Assembly (NCBI GenBank): GCA_021802485.1
Contig: JAJZXF010000017.1
Span: forward strand, 1-38,390
Direction of reading: 5' to 3'
DNA: 38,390 nucleotides
DNA from: Actinomycetes bacterium
GTDB taxonomy: Bacteria > Actinomycetota > Acidimicrobiia > Acidimicrobiales > JAJZXF01
Part shown: piece after piece, positions 15,446 to 23,952 of the stretch
How positions within the stretch are numbered: position 1 is the stretch's first letter
Layout of the letters: every line of letters starts with the position of its first letter
The notes under the pieces: model-generated
Seen by the model: only the letters and a program-made list of their open reading frames with translations
Told to the model about the DNA's origin: nothing
Database searches by the model: none
Position numbers and translations under genes: made by a program

Positions 15446-18400
15446 ATGCGAGTACGAACCAGCAAACTTGTTGCAGCAGGGCTGATGCTGGTTTCCTCTG
15501 CCTCGGGGGCCTTGGCCGGCATTATTGATGCTTCAGCTAGCCCAGCTTCGGGGCTGCAGGGCATTGCAGGACTAGCAACCGGCGCTCGCGCCGGTGCGCA
15601 GCACCAGATGTTGGATCCGCGTGCGGTCGCGGCTTTTCTCCGGTCCCAAAGGGCAGGGGAGGGCACGCGGGTCCAGGCAGCGCAGCGTTATGCGCGAGCC
15701 GTTGCTCGGACTCGGGTGCTGCAAGCAGAGGCTGTCCATACTGCGGGCAGCATCAGCTCGGCACGATGGAGTTCGCTCGGGCCCACCCAGATCAGCCAGA
15801 GTGCGACCGGCGGGCAGAATTCAGGGCGTGTGACGGGGCTCGCGGTGGTCTCTGGGAGTTCCGACACGGTATACTTGGGGTCCGCTGGCGGCGGTGTGTG
15901 GTCGGCGAGCATAGCGGGAACGAGCACTACGTGGGCGACCCACACTGACGGACAGCCCGATATTGCGATCGGTGCTGTCGCTGTGGATCCGAGCGATCCG
16001 AGTGCATTATTCGCGGGAACTGGGGAGAACAATCACTGCGGCGACTGCTACCCTGGTGGCGGAGTCCTCGAATCGACCGATGGCGGCGCGACATGGAGCA
16101 TGTCCAACCCCGGCGGCATGTTCACCGGGGTTGACGTCTCCGCTATCGTGGTCGAGCCAGGCGCCTCGTCGCTGTCGGCCACGACAGTGCTCGTTGCTGC
16201 GTCAACAGGGCTGTTCGTCTCGACCGACGGGGGTGCGAGCTGGTCCCATGAGGCCGGGAGTGGTTGGCGGGCCGGCTCTACGTCGGCGATTGTTGTGAAT
16301 CCACTTACGAGCCCGTTCACCCTCTACGCGGCGGTTGTTGGCACAGGTATCGAGGAGAGCACAGACAATGGCACGAACTGGACGACGTTGTCGGGCACCG
16401 GGCTGCCCTCCGCCTCGTCTTTTGGCCCAACAGCGGTCGCGATCTCGCCAGCGTCGAGCACGTCCTCGACGACACTTTACGTCTCGATCGGCTCAAACTC
16501 CGGGTATGTGGGGATGTACAAGTCCACTGACGGGGGGGCATCGTGGGCTCAGCTCAGCCCGCCGGCGTTCACGGACCAGTCCTACGCCTATGGCTCAGGC
16601 ACATCGGACCAGAGCTGGTATGACAACGTGATCGCGGTGGAGCCCGGGAACCCGAACGTGGTCGTTGCTGGCGGGATCGCTGCGATCGAGAGCACGGACG
16701 GTGGAACTACTTGGTATAACCTCAACGGCCAGACATTCTTCGGATCTGGCACCAACCTCTTGCACCCAGATTTTCACGCGCTTGCGTTCGACTCGTCGGG
16801 GAACCTCTACCTGGGCTGCGACGGCGGCGTCTGGGAGCTCAATGCGGCTGGCGTGTCGAATCCGGGCGCGGTCACGGCGTCCGACTACACCAATTTGAAC
16901 ACGAACCTAGATATCACCCAGTTCTATGAGGGCTTGAGCGTCTACAACAACGGCGCACAGATCCTCGGCGGTTCCCAGGACAACGGCACCTCCCTGTACT
17001 CTGGATCGAATCCGTGGCCACAGGTCCTTGGCGGGGATGGCGGCTACAGCGCGATCAACCCGCTCGACTCCACACAGCAGTTCGCCGAAGCCGATGCTGG
17101 CCTTTACGTGACCTCCGATTCCTGGGCTTCCACTCAGGCGAACATCACACCCAATGGAGGGGCGGGTGGAAATTTTGTCCCGCCGGCGACCATCGTTGCG
17201 AACAGCGCTTCCCCGGATGCGCCAACTTTGTATTACGGCGGGTCTGATCTGTGGGAAACCACAGATCCTGCCAGCAGTTCCCCGGCGTGGACGCAACTGA
17301 CCACCTACGGGGGCGCGAACAACACTGCGGTCTCTGCGATCGTAGTAGCTCCGTCGAACCCATCGGTGCTGTATGTCGGCTTCGACAACGGGGAACTGAT
17401 GGTCTCGACGAACGCGACGTCCTCCATTCCCACGTTCAGCACCGTGGCAACGCTAGGGGAGTGGATCACTCACATCGCAGTTGATCCCACGAACTCCGCG
17501 GAGGTTCTGGTGAGCCAGAGCTTCAGTGATACCCAGGACAAGCTGGCGAACCCCCAGGTGCAGCAGATCACAGGCGCAACGACTTCGAGTCCGACTGTGA
17601 CGAACGTAACCGGAGATCTGCCGGGGGGAATCTCCTCGAACTCAGTGGTTTTCGATGGTTCTTCCTACGTAGTCGCAACGGACGTCGGGGTCTTCGTTAC
17701 GTCGGCTCTAAATGGATCCGCCACCTCCTGGAGTTCGGTTGGCACGGGGCTCCCGACGGTTCAGGTTGTTGGCTTGAGCGTCGACGCCAATGGGGATCTA
17801 TACGCCGCTACTCACGGCCGCGGGGTTTGGGAGCTGGCGCTTCCGCCGAAGCTCGCGTTCACCACACAGCCACCTTCTACTACGCAGGCAGGATCTCGGT
17901 TCGCTGTAGCTGTGTCAGTCGAGGACGCGGCGGGCAACGTGGTCACCTCAGACTCTACAGACCAGGTGACGCTTGGAATCGCCGCTGGCACAGGAGCGAG
18001 CGGTTCGAGTCTCCGCTGCGCGCGGAACCCGGTTACGGTCTCAAGTGGCGTAGCTGACTTCAGCTGCTCGATCAACACCGCGGGGAGCGGCTACACGCTC
18101 TCTGCGACGAGTGGCTCGCTCACCCCAGCGACATCTTCTGGGTTTCAAGTGAGCGCAGGATCGCCATCGAAGCTCGCGTTCACCACACAGCCACCTTCTA
18201 CTACGCAGGCAGGATCTCGGTTCGCTATAGCTGTGTCAGTCGAGGACGCGGCGGGCAACGTGGTCACCTCGGACTCTACAGACCAGGTGACGCTTGGAAT
18301 CACCGCTGGCACAGGAGCGAGCGGTTCGAGTCTCAGTTGCGCAGCGAACCCGGTGACGGTCACGAGCGGGGTAGCTGACTTCAGCTGCTCGATCAACGAC

Positions 18401-19243
18401 GCGGGGAGTGGCTACACGCTCTCTGCGACGAGTGGCTCGCTCGCCCCAGCGACATCTTCCACACTTGATGTGAGCGCGGCCATTTCCTCGAGCGCCAAGG
18501 GGTATTGGTTCGTAGCATCAGATGGCGGCATCTTCAGCTTCGGTGATGCAAAGTTCTACGGCTCAATGGGTGCAAAGCACTTGAACGCTCCGATCGTCGG
18601 TATGGCAGCTACCCCAGATGGCAAGGGGTACTGGTTCGTAGCATCAGATGGCGGCATCTTCAGCTTCGGTGATGCAAAGTTCTACGGCTCGATGGGCGCA
18701 AAGCACTTGAACGCTCCGATCGTCGGTATGGCAGCTACGCCAGATGGCAAGGGGTACTGGTTCGTAGCATCAGATGGCGGCATCTTCAGCTTCGGTGATG
18801 CAAAGTTCTACGGCTCGATGGGCGCAAAGCACTTGAACCAGCCAATAGTCGGTATGGCTGCTACGCCAGATGGCAAAGGTTACTGGTTCGTAGCGTCAGA
18901 CGGCGGAATCTTCAGCTTCGGTGACGCGAAGTTCTACGGCTCTATGGGTGCAAAGCACTTGAACAAACCAATAGTCGGCATGGCAGCTACGCCTGATGGC
19001 AAGGGGTATTGGTTCGTAGCGTCAGACGGGGGCATCTTCAGCTTCGGTGATGCAAAGTTCTACGGCTCTATGGGTGCAAGGCACCTCAACAAACCAATAG
19101 TCGGCATGGCAGCTACGCCTGATGGCAAGGGTTATTGGTTCGTAGCATCAGACGGCGGAATCTTCTCATTCGGTGATGCAAAGTTCTACGGCTCCATGGG
19201 TGCAAAGCACTTGAACAAGCCAATCGTCGGTATGGTCGTTTGA
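15446..19243 (+). CDS. Large secreted Asp-box (BNR/sortilin-like) propeller protein with Ig-like and 42-aa repeats
   Basis: The protein has 1265 residues. A signal peptide (LVAAGLMLVSSASGALAG) opens it. Residues 100 to about 795 contain repeated Asp-boxes (STDGGATW near 209, STDGGASW twice, STDNGTNW, STDGGTTW). These are typical of sialidase/Vps10-type beta-propellers, which are often carbohydrate-binding or glycosidase-like but not necessarily enzymes. Two Ig-like repeats of 107 residues follow (from about 801 and 908, each starting KLAFTTQPPSTTQAGSRFA). Six 42-residue [20 protein letters not shown] units (about 1020-1265) end it. No sortase motif or C-terminal anchor is visible. It is probably co-transcribed with the preceding gene and ends before a strong terminator. 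An enzymatic activity cannot be claimed. Confidence 0.87.
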   Translation: MRVRTSKLVAAGLMLVSSASGALAGIIDASASPASGLQGIAGLATGARAGAQHQMLDPRAVAAFLRSQRAGEGTRVQAAQRYARAVARTRVLQAEAVHTAGSISSARWSSLGPTQISQSATGGQNSGRVTGLAVVSGSSDTVYLGSAGGGVWSASIAGTSTTWATHTDGQPDIAIGAVAVDPSDPSALFAGTGENNHCGDCYPGGGVLESTDGGATWSMSNPGGMFTGVDVSAIVVEPGASSLSATTVLVAASTGLFVSTDGGASWSHEAGSGWRAGSTSAIVVNPLTSPFTLYAAVVGTGIEESTDNGTNWTTLSGTGLPSASSFGPTAVAISPASSTSSTTLYVSIGSNSGYVGMYKSTDGGASWAQLSPPAFTDQSYAYGSGTSDQSWYDNVIAVEPGNPNVVVAGGIAAIESTDGGTTWYNLNGQTFFGSGTNLLHPDFHALAFDSSGNLYLGCDGGVWELNAAGVSNPGAVTASDYTNLNTNLDITQFYEGLSVYNNGAQILGGSQDNGTSLYSGSNPWPQVLGGDGGYSAINPLDSTQQFAEADAGLYVTSDSWASTQANITPNGGAGGNFVPPATIVANSASPDAPTLYYGGSDLWETTDPASSSPAWTQLTTYGGANNTAVSAIVVAPSNPSVLYVGFDNGELMVSTNATSSIPTFSTVATLGEWITHIAVDPTNSAEVLVSQSFSDTQDKLANPQVQQITGATTSSPTVTNVTGDLPGGISSNSVVFDGSSYVVATDVGVFVTSALNGSATSWSSVGTGLPTVQVVGLSVDANGDLYAATHGRGVWELALPPKLAFTTQPPSTTQAGSRFAVAVSVEDAAGNVVTSDSTDQVTLGIAAGTGASGSSLRCARNPVTVSSGVADFSCSINTAGSGYTLSATSGSLTPATSSGFQVSAGSPSKLAFTTQPPSTTQAGSRFAIAVSVEDAAGNVVTSDSTDQVTLGITAGTGASGSSLSCAANPVTVTSGVADFSCSINDAGSGYTLSATSGSLAPATSSTLDVSAAISSSAKGYWFVASDGGIFSFGDAKFYGSMGAKHLNAPIVGMAATPDGKGYWFVASDGGIFSFGDAKFYGSMGAKHLNAPIVGMAATPDGKGYWFVASDGGIFSFGDAKFYGSMGAKHLNQPIVGMAATPDGKGYWFVASDGGIFSFGDAKFYGSMGAKHLNKPIVGMAATPDGKGYWFVASDGGIFSFGDAKFYGSMGARHLNKPIVGMAATPDGKGYWFVASDGGIFSFGDAKFYGSMGAKHLNKPIVGMVV
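17849..18490 (+). repeat. Two 321-bp direct repeats coding Ig-like domains
   Basis: 17849-18169 and 18170-18490 code two 107-residue domains. The first 150 bases or so differ at only a few positions, which points to a recent duplication or gene conversion. Confidence 0.88.
18503..19240 (+). repeat. Six 126-bp tandem units (42 aa each)
   Basis: Units start at 18503, 18629, 18755, 18881, 19007 and 19133. Neighbouring units differ mainly at synonymous positions and at a few residues (for example HLNAP, HLNQP, HLNKP). Confidence 0.93.
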
Positions 19244-19263: not shown

Positions 19264-19288
19264 GCCCGAAGGCTTTTCGGGCGTTTTT
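19264..19288 (+). terminator. Rho-independent terminator
   Basis: GCCCGAA (19264-19270), loop GGCTT, TTCGGGC (19276-19282), then GTTTTT. It lies 20 bases after the stop of the propeller gene. Confidence 0.9.
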
Positions 19289-19312
19289 GCCTCACGGCGA
19301 CGTTTGCTCGAC

Positions 19313-19318
19313 TATGAT
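19313..19318 (+). promoter_or_regulatory. Putative -10 box (TATGAT) of the leuB-ilvE-cimA operon
   Basis: TATGAT ends 7 bases before ATG 19326, so transcription could start at the A of that ATG and give a leaderless leader-peptide mRNA. No clear -35 box at 17-18 bp; TTGCCT at 19287 is 20 bp away. It lies just after the previous terminator. Confidence 0.5.
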
Positions 19319-19325
19319 GTGTTGC

Positions 19326-19361
19326 ATGCTTCGTTTGCAGGCAGCAGTAATTATCGAATAA
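19326..19361 (+). CDS. Putative branched-chain amino-acid leader peptide (attenuator)
   Basis: ATG 19326 opens an 11-codon frame, MLRLQAAVIIE, ending in TAA at 19359-19361. An earlier in-frame ATG at 19314 would add MMCC. Five of 11 codons are Leu, Val or Ile, including Val-Ile-Ile in a row just before the stop. It sits between a terminator and a hairpin, about 280 bp ahead of three branched-chain amino-acid genes. Stalling at the GTA-ATT-ATC codons under Val/Ile shortage would fit classic attenuation. The TATGAT box 7 bases upstream suggests a leaderless message. All of this is inference from sequence. Confidence 0.5.
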   Translation: MLRLQAAVIIE

Positions 19362-19392
19362 ACAGGTGCCCCCGAACGGGAGTGCCTTGTAG

Positions 19393-19415
19393 TGCCGTCC
19401 ACTTGGTGGGCGGCA
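19393..19415 (+). promoter_or_regulatory. Hairpin downstream of leader peptide (possible attenuator stem)
   Basis: T-GCCGTCCAC / loop TTG / GTGGGCGGC-A forms a 10-bp stem with one G-T pair, followed by TTTGT. Upstream GTGCCCCC (from about 19366) can pair partly with GGGCGGCAT and could act as the alternative stem. The U tract is weak. Confidence 0.45.
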
Positions 19416-19614
19416 TTTGTCGTCTCACCTGCTCTGGTGTCACAGTGCTTCAGGAGCGGAGTTTCGCACGATCCCACATGCGAGAAGTTGTTCCTCCGGC
19501 TCTGGCTGGCGAGGCAGACAAAGTGCCGGGCGAATATGGTGTGCGGGATAGTTGACGTCGAGACGTTGGAGACAGCGAGGTCGCAGGCGTGAGAAGGCGG
19601 GAAGGATTATGGGA

Positions 19615-19644
19615 ATGGGTTTGAAAACAGCACGGCGATCATGA
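19615..19644 (+). CDS. Possible upstream mini-ORF coupled to leuB
   Basis: ATG 19615 (or 19609) follows GAAGGA by 8 bases and reads MGLKTARRS before a TGA at 19642-19644 that overlaps the leuB ATG (ATGA). LeuB itself has no visible ribosome site, so it may be translated by coupling. It could be chance. Confidence 0.3.
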
Positions 19645-20762
19645 CGAGCGAATCTATCGTCGGCGGAGGCGGGTCTGCGCGCAGCGCTGGGCAGGCGTCT
19701 TCCAGGCAGGGTTCAGCTTTCAGGGTTGGTGTGATCGGCGGGGATGGGATCGGCCCCGAGGTCGTTGCAGAGGCATTGAAGGTGGTTGATGCTGCTGGTA
19801 TCGCACTCGAGACCGTCGCGTACGACCTTGGCGCAGGTCGCTACCTTCGTACCGGTGAGGTACTCCCTGCCTCCGTCCTGGATGAGCTGAGGGAACTGGA
19901 CGCGATCTTGCTGGGAGCGGTCGGGCCCCCGGTCGGGAGCAGTGAGGTTCCGTCGGGACTCCTCGAGCGGGGGCTATTATTGAAGCTCAGGTTCGAGCTA
20001 GACCTTTACATCAACCTCCGCCCGTTTACTCCGACTCCGGGATCTATCGCAGAGGGCTCCGATTTTGCGGTGGTGCGCGAGAATACCGAGGGATCTTACG
20101 CTGGCGAAGGCGGGTTTTTGAGGAAGGACACCGCTCAGGAGGTTGCTACCCAAGGGGCGGTGAACACGCGTTTTGGTGTTGAGCGATGCCTGAGGTTTGC
20201 GTTCGATCTTGCCCGGACGCGCGAGCGCAAGAGCCTAACCCTCGTGCACAAAGCGAACGTGCTGACATTCGCAGGGGACCTTTGGCGCAGGGCCTTCGAT
20301 GAGGTGGGCGATGGCTTCCCCGAGGTGCACCGGGCTTACGATCATGTGGACGCGTCGTGTATCTACCTCGTCGAGAAGCCATCGCGCTATGACGTGATAG
20401 TCACTGACAACCTGTTCGGGGACATCATCACTGATCTGGCAGGGGCGGTGAGCGGCGGGATCGGGCTGGCAGCTTCTGCGAACCTGAATCCGGAGCGTAC
20501 GGGGCCGTCTCTCTTCGAGCCGGTTCATGGGGCTGCCTGGGACATAGCGGGAAAACACACAGCTAACCCGTTGGCAGCGATTCGCTCGGCTGCGCTGATG
20601 CTGGACCACCTGGGGGAAGCCGAGGTTGCTGCACGTATAACAAAGGCTGTGGTCGAGCATGCCGTCTCGTCAAGCGCCCGGAACACGCCGGGTGGGTCGT
20701 ATACCGGAAAATCACAAATGAGCACTGCCGAGATAGGCGATGCGATAGCAGAGAAGGTCTGA
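19641..20762 (+). CDS. leuB: 3-Isopropylmalate dehydrogenase
   Basis: The protein has 373 residues and performs oxidative decarboxylation of 3-isopropylmalate in leucine synthesis. Beside cimA it may also oxidise 3-methylmalate in the citramalate route to isoleucine. Family motifs: [14 protein letters not shown] after a Gly/Ser-rich extension of about 27 residues, [16 protein letters not shown] (substrate arginines), [20 protein letters not shown] (catalytic Lys) and [14 protein letters not shown] (metal-binding Asp). It ends 3 bp before ilvE, so the two are one operon. The N-terminal extension has no obvious role, and a downstream start is possible. Confidence 0.93.
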
Positions 20763-20765
20763 CTC

Positions 20766-21695
20766 ATGCCGATAACTCCGACGGAGAAGATATGGATGGA
20801 TGGAGAGCTCGTTGACTGGAGCGCGGCCCAGGTGCATGTGTTGTCTCATACGCTCCACTACGGCTCCGGCGTGTTCGAGGGGATACGTGCCTATGCTACC
20901 CGCGTTGGACCGGCGATCTTCCGTCTTGGAGATCACATGACGAGGCTGCTGGACTCAGCCCGGATCCTCTTGATTGAGGTGCCGTATTCGCACGCAGAGT
21001 TGGTTGCTGCCGCGAAGGCGGTTGTGCGGGTCAACGGCCTGGACAACGGCTGTTACCTGCGGCCGGTGGTTTTTCTTGGCTACGGGGAGATGGGACTGAA
21101 CCCGCTCCCATGTCCGGTCCAGGTTGCTATCGCTGCCTGGCCCTGGGGCACCTACCTTGGCGACGAAGGGGTGAACTCCGGCGTGCGGCTCAAGATAAGT
21201 TCCTGGCGGCGGCATGACCCGAACGCGATGCCGACCGCGGCAAAGGGCATTGGCATGTACGTCAACTCGTCGATGGCGAAGGCGGAGGCGTTGAAGGCGG
21301 GCTACGACGAGGCCGTTATGCTCTCACCGACCGGGCAGGTCAGCGAGTGCTCGGGTGAGAACATCTTCGTTCTGCGAAAGGGCCGTCTCGTGACGCCAGA
21401 TTCAGCCGCATCGGGAGCGCTCGAGGGAATCACCCAGGACGCGGTGATCACAATCGCTAGAGACCTCGGCTACGAGGTGGAGCGTGGCGCGCTCGTGCGC
21501 AGCGATCTTTACGCGGCTGATGAGGCTTTTATTACTGGCACAGCAGCAGAGGTGGTTCCGATCCGATCGGTGGATGATCGTGTGGTGGGAACAGGCGAAC
21601 CGGGTCCGGTCACGCGCAAGATCCAAGAGGTGTATTTCGCTACCGTGCGTGGTGAGGTTGACCGCTACAGCAGCTGGTTGGATCATGTCCGCTGA
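20766..21695 (+). CDS. ilvE: Branched-chain amino-acid aminotransferase
   Basis: The protein has 309 residues, a PLP fold type IV transaminase making Leu, Ile and Val from their keto acids. Seen: the N-terminal KIWMDGELVDW, THTLHYGSGVFEGIRAY-type segment (here SHTLHYGSGVFEGIRAY), the PLP lysine in TAAKGIGMYVNS (Lys160), and SECSGENIFVLRKG with the cofactor-phosphate-binding region GITQDAVITIARDLG. Length is normal. It starts 3 bp after leuB and its last 11 bases overlap cimA, so translation is probably coupled. Confidence 0.94.
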   Translation: MPITPTEKIWMDGELVDWSAAQVHVLSHTLHYGSGVFEGIRAYATRVGPAIFRLGDHMTRLLDSARILLIEVPYSHAELVAAAKAVVRVNGLDNGCYLRPVVFLGYGEMGLNPLPCPVQVAIAAWPWGTYLGDEGVNSGVRLKISSWRRHDPNAMPTAAKGIGMYVNSSMAKAEALKAGYDEAVMLSPTGQVSECSGENIFVLRKGRLVTPDSAASGALEGITQDAVITIARDLGYEVERGALVRSDLYAADEAFITGTAAEVVPIRSVDDRVVGTGEPGPVTRKIQEVYFATVRGEVDRYSSWLDHVR

Positions 21696-23427
21696 CCCGG
21701 ATGCAGACGTAGAGCGAGCTGCTCGAGCGACGGATCAAGTTGGACGGATGCCAGCTGGCAGCTTTTCGCCGACGAGCGCTTCAGACACTCGCGGACCCAA
21801 TTCCACCCTTGGGTTGCATGTTGACGTCTTTGACACGACGTTGCGCGACGGTAGCCAGCAGGAGGGGCTGTCGCTGACGGTGGATGACAAGCTCCGGGTG
21901 GCCCGCCAGCTCGACCATCTTGGAGTCGCATACATAGAGGGTGGTTGGCCAGGTGCAAACCCGAAGGACGACGAGTTCTTCGCGAGGGCAAAGGCTGAGC
22001 TCAGTCTCGACATTGCGACGCTCGTAGCGTTTGGCTCAACAAGGCGTGCAGGCGTGAGGGCTGAGGATGACGATGCTCTAGTCCGTCTCGCGGGAGTGGA
22101 GACGGACGTGGTGTGCATCGTCGCGAAGGCATGGGATCGCCATGTCGTCGATGCGCTGCGAACGAGCCTTGACGAAGCGGTCAACATGGCCTTTGATTCG
22201 GTGCAGTTTCTGAAGGGATTGGGACGTAGGGTCTTCTTCGACGCGGAGCACTTCTTCGACGGCTATAGGGATAACAGCGAGTTTGCACTCAGGGTTCTGG
22301 AGGCAGCAGAGGCTGGTGGAGCGGAGATTCTGGTCCTGTGCGATACGAACGGGGGCAGCCTTCCTGATGATGTGAGCCAGGTTGTCTCGAGGGTTGTCGC
22401 AGAGCGTTCAGCTGGCATCGGTGTTCATTTCCACAATGACGGCGGCTGTGCGGTAGCCAACTCGCTTGCAGCGGTCCGCCAGGGCGCTGTTCAGGTGCAA
22501 GGGTGTGTGAACGGCTACGGCGAGCGCGCAGGGAATGCGGATCTTTGCGCGGTGATAGCGAACCTTGGGCTCAAGATGGATGTCTCCTCGATCCCCGAGG
22601 ATCGGATGGAGCGGCTAACCCCGGTAGCGCATCACATTGCCGAGCTGGTGAACATCCCGCCAAGCCCCCAGCAGCCATACGTAGGGTCAAGTGTCTTTGC
22701 CCACAAGGCGGGTCTCCATGTCAGCGCGATAGCACGCAGGCGCGACGCATACGAACACATCTCCCCTGATCGCGTGGGCAATGGCGCCCGATTCGTGGTA
22801 AGCGAGCTCGCTGGGCGTTCCACCCTGGCGTTGAAGGCCGAGGAGCTCGGCTTGTCCCTGGACGGTGAGGCATTAACCGGCGTTCTCGACAGGCTGAAGC
22901 ACCTGGAGCACGAGGGTTACCACTTCGAGGTGGCCGATGCCTCGCTGGAGCTTCTCATGCGGGCTGCGAGCGGGTGGGAGCAGGACTTCTTTCATCTGGA
23001 GTCCTTCAGGGTCACGACCGACCTTTTCGCGGGCGGCCGCCAAGGTCCTCCAGGAAAGTTGATGACCGACGCTACGGTCAAGCTACATGTCGCCGGCGAG
23101 CGCACGGTCGCAACTGCTGAGGGCAACGGTCCGGTTCATGCACTAGATGCCGCGCTGCGCAAGGCAATTGGCGCGCGTTACCCGCAGCTTGAATGCATCC
23201 ACCTCACTGACTTCCGAGTGCGCGTGCTGGATACATCGAAAGGTACCGGGGCTGTGACGCGTGTTCTGATCGACTCTACGGACTCAGAGCGCACCTGGTC
23301 GACTATAGGGGTGTCGGAGAACATCATCCAGGCGTCGTGGGAAGCCCTCGAGGACTCGATAGTGTATGGCCTGTTGTACGCTACGGGGGACATGGTCATG
23401 GATCCAGAAACCGAAGGGAGTGAGTGA
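21685..23427 (+). CDS. cimA: (R)-citramalate synthase
   Basis: The protein has 580 residues from ATG 21685, which overlaps the ilvE end by 11 bases. It condenses pyruvate with acetyl-CoA to citramalate, the first step of threonine-independent isoleucine synthesis. The DRE-TIM catalytic motif is VFDTTLRDGSQQEG (about 48-61). The metal HxH motif is GVHFHNDGG, and GNADLCAVIANL follows. Residues from about 440 form the LeuA-type regulatory domain. The pattern (early GWPGANPKDDEFF, long spacing, two-part C-terminus) is that of CimA rather than 2-isopropylmalate synthase. A low-complexity N-terminal extension of about 40 residues precedes the barrel. Its presence with leuB suggests that Ile is made from pyruvate here. 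Confidence 0.92.
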   Translation: MSADPDADVERAARATDQVGRMPAGSFSPTSASDTRGPNSTLGLHVDVFDTTLRDGSQQEGLSLTVDDKLRVARQLDHLGVAYIEGGWPGANPKDDEFFARAKAELSLDIATLVAFGSTRRAGVRAEDDDALVRLAGVETDVVCIVAKAWDRHVVDALRTSLDEAVNMAFDSVQFLKGLGRRVFFDAEHFFDGYRDNSEFALRVLEAAEAGGAEILVLCDTNGGSLPDDVSQVVSRVVAERSAGIGVHFHNDGGCAVANSLAAVRQGAVQVQGCVNGYGERAGNADLCAVIANLGLKMDVSSIPEDRMERLTPVAHHIAELVNIPPSPQQPYVGSSVFAHKAGLHVSAIARRRDAYEHISPDRVGNGARFVVSELAGRSTLALKAEELGLSLDGEALTGVLDRLKHLEHEGYHFEVADASLELLMRAASGWEQDFFHLESFRVTTDLFAGGRQGPPGKLMTDATVKLHVAGERTVATAEGNGPVHALDAALRKAIGARYPQLECIHLTDFRVRVLDTSKGTGAVTRVLIDSTDSERTWSTIGVSENIIQASWEALEDSIVYGLLYATGDMVMDPETEGSE

Positions 23428-23430
23428 GCT

Positions 23431-23952
23431 GTGACGCAACCCAACTACGTCCCAATCAGTGAAGCGGACCAGGTGCGTGGAGCGTTGCGACTGCGACAGC
23501 CTCCGGGATGGAAACCCACCAGGCCGGGTGAGCTGAAATTCCCGGTCAGCGTAGGTGGATCTTTGAGAGGCGCGCCGGGACCGGATCAGGGGTTCGCGCT
23601 CCATCTGGCGCAGCTCTTCGAGCCCAAGCTCGTGCTTGCCGCTGGCGAGCACGTACCGGACCTGATGGCGGCCTGTTCAGCGCAGGCGATGCGTCGGGCC
23701 GCGCTCTGGGGGAGGGCGCCGATGCTCGGGGACTGCGAAGCTGCCCTCACCCTTTGGGGGTGCCTCGCGGCTGCTCCTGACGACCTGGTCGGGTATCGAA
23801 AGGAACTGTTCCTCGGGGCAGCACACGACTACTCTGTCCAGCGAAGGATCTGCGATCGGGTGCCAAAGGACGTCGCGAAGCTGAGCGCGGCCGAGATACG
23901 GGACCGCTTGGAGGGACCCGGCGGCTGGAGAGCGCTACTCCCTGCGAGCTGA
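23431..23952 (+). CDS. Conserved hypothetical protein in the leuB-ilvE-cimA operon
   Basis: The protein has 173 residues from GTG 23431, three bases after the cimA stop, so it is almost certainly co-transcribed. I do not recognise a named domain. The N-terminus is Pro/Gly-rich (LRLRQPPGWKPTRPGELKFP). The middle and end are helical, with HLAQLFEPKLVLAAGEHVPDLMAACSAQA-type segments and several Trp and Cys residues but no metal motif or membrane helix. It is probably a small cytoplasmic protein. The context hints at a role linked to branched-chain amino-acid or acyl metabolism; this is only guilt by association. Confidence 0.75.
   Translation: MTQPNYVPISEADQVRGALRLRQPPGWKPTRPGELKFPVSVGGSLRGAPGPDQGFALHLAQLFEPKLVLAAGEHVPDLMAACSAQAMRRAALWGRAPMLGDCEAALTLWGCLAAAPDDLVGYRKELFLGAAHDYSVQRRICDRVPKDVAKLSAAEIRDRLEGPGGWRALLPAS

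Follow-up and report, generated by a model that had tools for sequence, protein, structure and literature searches.

In C. glutamicum, attenuation by a translated leader peptide has been shown experimentally for the ilvBNC operon (PMC11857589), following the same logic as is proposed here for a leuB operon. In that system and in the ilvB-II motif (PMC11857589, PMC10272879), the leader start codon lies one nucleotide from the transcript start, the control codons specify branched-chain amino acids and include a conserved GUA, and the last of several hairpins is the terminator. The antiterminator of ilvBNC has been modelled and tested by mutation, and an anti-antiterminator overlaps the leader region. 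In S. lividans, ilvL, leuL1 and leuL2 are leaders of leaderless transcripts with peptides of 12-15 codons, upstream of ilvBHC, leuA and leuS; ilvL and leuL2 have a Rho-independent terminator (PMC8079986). An attenuator at ilvB1 of M. tuberculosis has been proposed with reporter and SEnd-seq data (PMC13236596). Its 166-nt leader precedes ilvB1 in the ilvB1NC operon and carries LVVI control codons, a regulatory GUA codon and a Rho-independent terminator, with a proposed switch between terminator and antiterminator. For Actinobacteria, Seliverstov 2005 (PMC1262725) described elements of trp, cys, ilvB, leuS, leuA and ileS, and reported seeing no conserved RNA structures in several other pathways. 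Finally, mycobacteria have leaderless regulatory short ORFs of the polycysteine type (Shell 2015, PMC4633059; Canestrari 2020, cited in PMC13236596). They respond to cysteine and are classed as translation attenuation, and no conserved terminator has been reported for them.

The element described here lies in a window of 38,390 nucleotides, the whole stretch of DNA analysed, from an Acidimicrobiales genome of 2.86 Mb. Like the C. glutamicum system it has branched-chain control codons with GUA among them and a terminator-type hairpin at the end, and its leader start codon is predicted to lie at or near the transcript start. By contrast, its first hairpin (H1) starts after the leader stop codon, no antiterminator was found, and the operon is leuB-ilvE-cimA. 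The S. lividans leaders have the leaderless design that is predicted here, but precede neither leuB nor cimA. The M. tuberculosis element has comparable control codons, GUA among them, and a terminator, but a different operon and a proposed antiterminator switch. The ilvB, leuS and trp leaders of PMC1262725 resemble the present element in having leader peptides and terminators, as here before branched-chain genes, but neither leuB nor cimA is among the cases in that work. The same work describes the LEU element, a pseudoknot that overlaps the leuA Shine-Dalgarno sequence and has no terminator (PMC1262725). The present locus does not fit it, as leuB lies downstream and a terminator-type hairpin is present. 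With the mycobacterial short ORFs the element would have in common a leaderless reading frame matched to an amino acid, albeit a different one. No relevant report of leader-peptide attenuation for leuB or citramalate synthase was found in the open-access literature searched. The kind of element is known, and its target operon and stop-adjacent layout of two hairpins appear to be new.

The leader upstream of leuB, ilvE and cimA

All features given with coordinates in this section from the intrinsic terminator onwards are on the forward strand. A gene at 15446-19243 encodes a protein of tandem repeats of 42 residues (126 nt), and the repeat DNA also occurs on many other contigs of the genome. 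This gene has its own intrinsic terminator at 19264-19289, called by the terminator scan as an 8-bp stem followed by GTTTTTG, which separates it from the leuB operon. The initial annotation had assigned the downstream genes to the synthesis of leucine, isoleucine and valine, and NCBIfam models agree. The first gene, leuB (19641-20762, start codon putative), encodes 3-isopropylmalate dehydrogenase (NF002898 above cut-off, 481 bits). It is followed by ilvE, a branched-chain aminotransferase gene (20766-21695; TIGR01122 above cut-off), and by cimA, which encodes citramalate synthase (21685-23427; TIGR00977 above cut-off, 658 bits). Judging from its translation, cimA would start at the ATG at 21685, overlapping the end of ilvE. 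An ORF of 173 residues (23431-23952) begins 3 nt past cimA, apparently in the same operon; it gave no match in NCBIfam or Pfam.

Between the upstream terminator and leuB, the sequence TATGAT (19313-19318) forms a -10 box, and a gap of 7 nt (19319-19325) separates it from an ATG at 19326, just as the initial annotation had reported. No recognisable -35 element was seen in the window and the promoter scan gave no full sigma-70 site. The reading frame that follows (19326-19361; ATG CTT CGT TTG CAG GCA GCA GTA ATT ATC GAA TAA) is predicted to be translated without a leader and encodes MLRLQAAVIIE, the frame noted earlier, with its tandem Val-Ile-Ile codons GTA ATT ATC at 19347-19355. Hairpin H1 (19362-19390) begins directly after the stop codon and is conserved in leuB relatives. 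It is followed by the terminator hairpin T (19391-19417), which has the core TGCCGTCCAC/GTGGGCGGCA. The 10-bp hairpin that had been placed after the frame is the stem of T, in which 19393-19402 pairs with 19406-19415, including one G.U pair, and which can be extended to 12 bp (19391-19417). The whole region from 19320 to 19445 folds at -51 kcal/mol, against a mean of -38.7 for shuffled sequences (z = -3.5), and none of 200 shuffles folded as well. An alternative pairing segment had also been proposed. Such pairing can be drawn in the window, for example between CAGGTG (19363-19368) and CACCTG (19426-19431), but relatives have no conserved counterpart, and this part of the earlier reading is not supported.

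T is followed by a degenerate U-tract, TTTGT (19416-19420). The terminator scan did not call T in the window; the U-tract there is poor. The corresponding tract is TTTGTATTT in the congener and mostly TTTTTCATTT in other genera. With so poor a U-tract behind T in this genus, the species may terminate transcription there only partly or with the help of a factor. Two hallmarks of an attenuator are found at the locus. The first is a short upstream ORF, predicted to be translated, with codons for the products of the operon. The second is a terminator between leader and first gene, formed in relatives by a hairpin with a U-tract and in the window by a strong hairpin with a poor one.

Conservation and gene-matched control codons

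The small frame and its hairpins were compared among relatives in Acidimicrobiaceae, Acidimicrobiales and Ilumatobacteraceae, as the initial annotation had suggested, and both are conserved (alignment A1). In 42 of the 110 leuB loci compared, a frame with Val/Ile-rich control codons is followed by a terminator, mostly 30-38 nt past the stop codon. The congener's leader reads RAVVIIA. The relatives' terminator is of the type CCGTCCAC-loop-GTGGGCGG, with TTTTT after it in most cases and often CATTT; the tail after leuB terminators averages 5.6 T in 8 positions. In one genome without the leader (L022), a short direct repeat, CTCGCTCATGACCTGCT, occurs several times immediately upstream of leuB. 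A covariance model, R1, was built from 41 leuB-leader sequences, the window's element and its relatives; the core of T is near-invariant across these 41 aligned sequences. In the window R1 matches 19344-19421 (49.6 bits, E 2e-8).

Of the 57 genomes of the order that have leuB, 33 have an R1 match directly before this gene and 24 do not; some of these 24 (G005, G007) have the element before cimA instead. Counting matches anywhere in the genome, R1 hits 108 of the 198 Acidimicrobiia genomes. Sixty of the weaker matches in the class were fetched and all lie before branched-chain genes (30 cimA-like, 24 ilvB, 6 leuB); two of the 30 cimA-like genes, with 34% identity and Leu codons in their leaders, are probably leuA. 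The phylum sample yields matches in five genomes beyond the class: two before leuB-ilvE, two before ilvB, and a fifth, partial one downstream of which no branched-chain gene was detected. With leaders before leuB-ilvE in genomes of the phylum that fall outside the class (L258, L260), the element type must be either older than the class or more mobile. Among control sequences, the detection rule gives a hit in only 0.5-1.2% of shuffled upstream regions and in none of 163 reverse-complemented ones. The counts are taken over related sequences, hence are not independent, and those of elements are lower bounds, the automatic scan having missed the leuA leader of this very genome, which was found by reading the stretch.

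The promoter arrangement of the window recurs in these leaders. A hexamer xAxxxT ending 5-10 nt before the in-frame ATG or GTG is present in 73 of 74 leuB leaders, against 9.8 +- 3.1 in shuffles, and in 36 of 40 ilvB and 34 of 49 cimA leaders, against about 7 and 7. Motifs resembling a Shine-Dalgarno sequence are rare (8 of 74 leuB leaders). The spacing of the -10 box therefore suggests that transcripts should begin at the leader start codon or a few nucleotides upstream.

The genome of the window has three leaders of the same layout: the one before leuB, with VII; one before ilvB (L151, G000:C97:32990-33065), with LVVV in a peptide that ends LVVVT; and one before leuA (L313, G000:C97 at about 10060, minus strand), with VLLL in a peptide that ends VLLLS and a terminator CCTCCTG..CAGGGGGTTTTTT. 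No leader was found for ilvD of this genome.

The identity of the control codons tracks the downstream gene. Codons were counted in 163 non-identical elements, each of which had to carry at least three V, I or L residues in its last five codons, an entry rule that cannot produce differences between genes. At codons -5 to -2 the leuB leaders have V104, I156 and L1, the cimA leaders I183, V3 and L1, and the ilvB leaders V91, L48 and I20, while leuA leaders use Leu control codons. The earlier suggestion that the window's element is keyed to valine and isoleucine gains force from this comparison, since that choice is specific to the leuB operon, ilvB leaders being of the Val/Leu type and those of stand-alone cimA of the Ile type. 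Where cimA lies apart from leuB (L164, L166, L197-L201 and others) it has a leader of its own with three or four consecutive Ile codons, for example ATC ATC ATT ATT, and this is a single-amino-acid version of the element. One further leader (L264, G041:C22:246020-246097), which combines codons for Val, Ile and Leu, stands directly before an apparent ilvE, the first gene in its operon.

Codon usage within the leaders is also distinctive. Of the Val codons, 58% are GTA in the leaders, as opposed to 5.3% in the genes behind them (odds ratio 25). The relatedness of the sequences makes the p-value too favourable, yet the position of GTA within the run shifts. ATT is enriched as well (40% versus 17%). 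Since the genome has tRNA-Val genes with the anticodons UAC, CAC and GAC, GTA should report on one isoacceptor, in line with the theory set out in PMC1183508.

Candidate modes of control

Taken from the sequence, the element is very probably a ribosome-mediated transcription attenuator, with a leader peptide that would be made from a leaderless or almost leaderless mRNA. The transcript would begin at the leader ATG or within a few bases of it, and a ribosome would translate the 11-codon ORF as RNA polymerase proceeds to H1 and T. With sufficient charged tRNA-Val and tRNA-Ile, the ribosome would arrive at the stop codon and the polymerase would terminate at T. When valine or isoleucine is scarce, the ribosome would wait on GTA-ATT-ATC and the polymerase would read through into leuB-ilvE-cimA. 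With the 26-nt ribosome footprint used in PMC13236596, which extends about 13 nt past the codon centre, a ribosome at the stop codon would cover the 5' arm of H1 and one on GTA would leave H1 free. Several points count against this reading: the poor U-tract and missing -35 element of the window, the distance of about 220 nt from T to the leuB start used, the 24 order-level genomes with no match next to leuB, and a search for a base-paired antiterminator that gave nothing better than chance.

H1 is likely to be the reader of ribosome position because it starts directly after the stop codon. Measured from the first base of the stop codon, its start lies 0-3 nt downstream in 73 of 74 leuB leaders; its stem has a median of 11 bp, and T follows after 0-6 nt with no bases in common between the two. 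In leuB relatives the H1 region folds with a mean z of -4.9 against shuffles, and many different pair types occur at each position. A tentative extension is a class-wide attenuator type of Acidimicrobiia that has no need of a conventional antiterminator, in which H1, melted by the ribosome or intact, controls the adjacent T and tRNA-Val(UAC) serves as the preferred valine sensor.

A conventional attenuator is a possible but doubtful alternative. A ribosome at the last control codon would half-mask H1, and the 3' arm of H1, once freed, would form an antiterminator with the 5' arm of T; otherwise H1 would form and T would terminate. Among the control positions, conservation is highest for Ile at codon -2 (68 of 74 leuB and all 49 cimA leaders), which would suit such a switch. 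Furthermore, when the RNA is free only from +8 past the stop codon, part of the 5' arm of T pairs upstream in 33 of 74 leuB elements, and leaving T unformed then costs about 6 instead of 16 kcal/mol. Against it, the 3' arm of H1 and the 5' arm of T form a duplex no stronger than shuffled arms do (z = -0.16), and no co-evolution is seen, native H1-T pairs being no better than swapped or random partners across gene families. Over the masked ribosome positions, leaving T unformed costs 6 to 17 kcal/mol. In leuB leaders the 5' arm of T can pair weakly, though not better than with shuffled or swapped partners, and in those of ilvB and cimA the pairing is weaker again.

It is improbable that control is translational, with stalling in the leader altering access to leuB or reinitiation there, as at the mycobacterial polycysteine leaderless short ORFs, and with T incidental. 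The U-tract is indeed weak in the window, and in some relatives the gene starts within a few tens of nucleotides of the terminator, but about 220 nt lie between T and the leuB start used in the window, and relatives have both T with its U-tract and a conserved distance of some 30-38 nt between it and the leader stop codon. T might otherwise be a constitutive or factor-dependent partial terminator, the leader peptide setting only basal read-through. The degenerate U-tract of this genus would fit; control codons that change with the downstream gene are not predicted by it, and it is very improbable. A chance frame beside the terminator of the previous gene has next to no probability: the frame has only 11 codons, but its conservation across the class and beyond refutes a chance origin, and the gene-matched codons and the separate terminator of the upstream gene (19264-19289) also count against it. 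A riboswitch that binds tRNA or a ligand, such as a T-box or another Rfam class, might be thought of before an amino acid biosynthesis operon but is hardly credible, as the conserved parts are an ORF and two simple hairpins, and a search of Rfam, including ilvB-II and T-box, gave no match in the window at gathering score and only chance-level matches in the leader region at E<=10.

If the element is a ribosome-mediated attenuator, the missing antiterminator, if real, calls for a different switch. The excess of GTA in these GC-rich genomes touches the selective-charging theory of control codons. The leaders form a natural series, suited to testing tRNA sensing, in which the gene downstream goes with the choice of Ile, Val/Ile, Val/Leu or Leu codons on one scaffold. 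With leuB-ilvE-cimA and cimA on its own, leader-peptide attenuation would be extended to isoleucine synthesis by way of citramalate.
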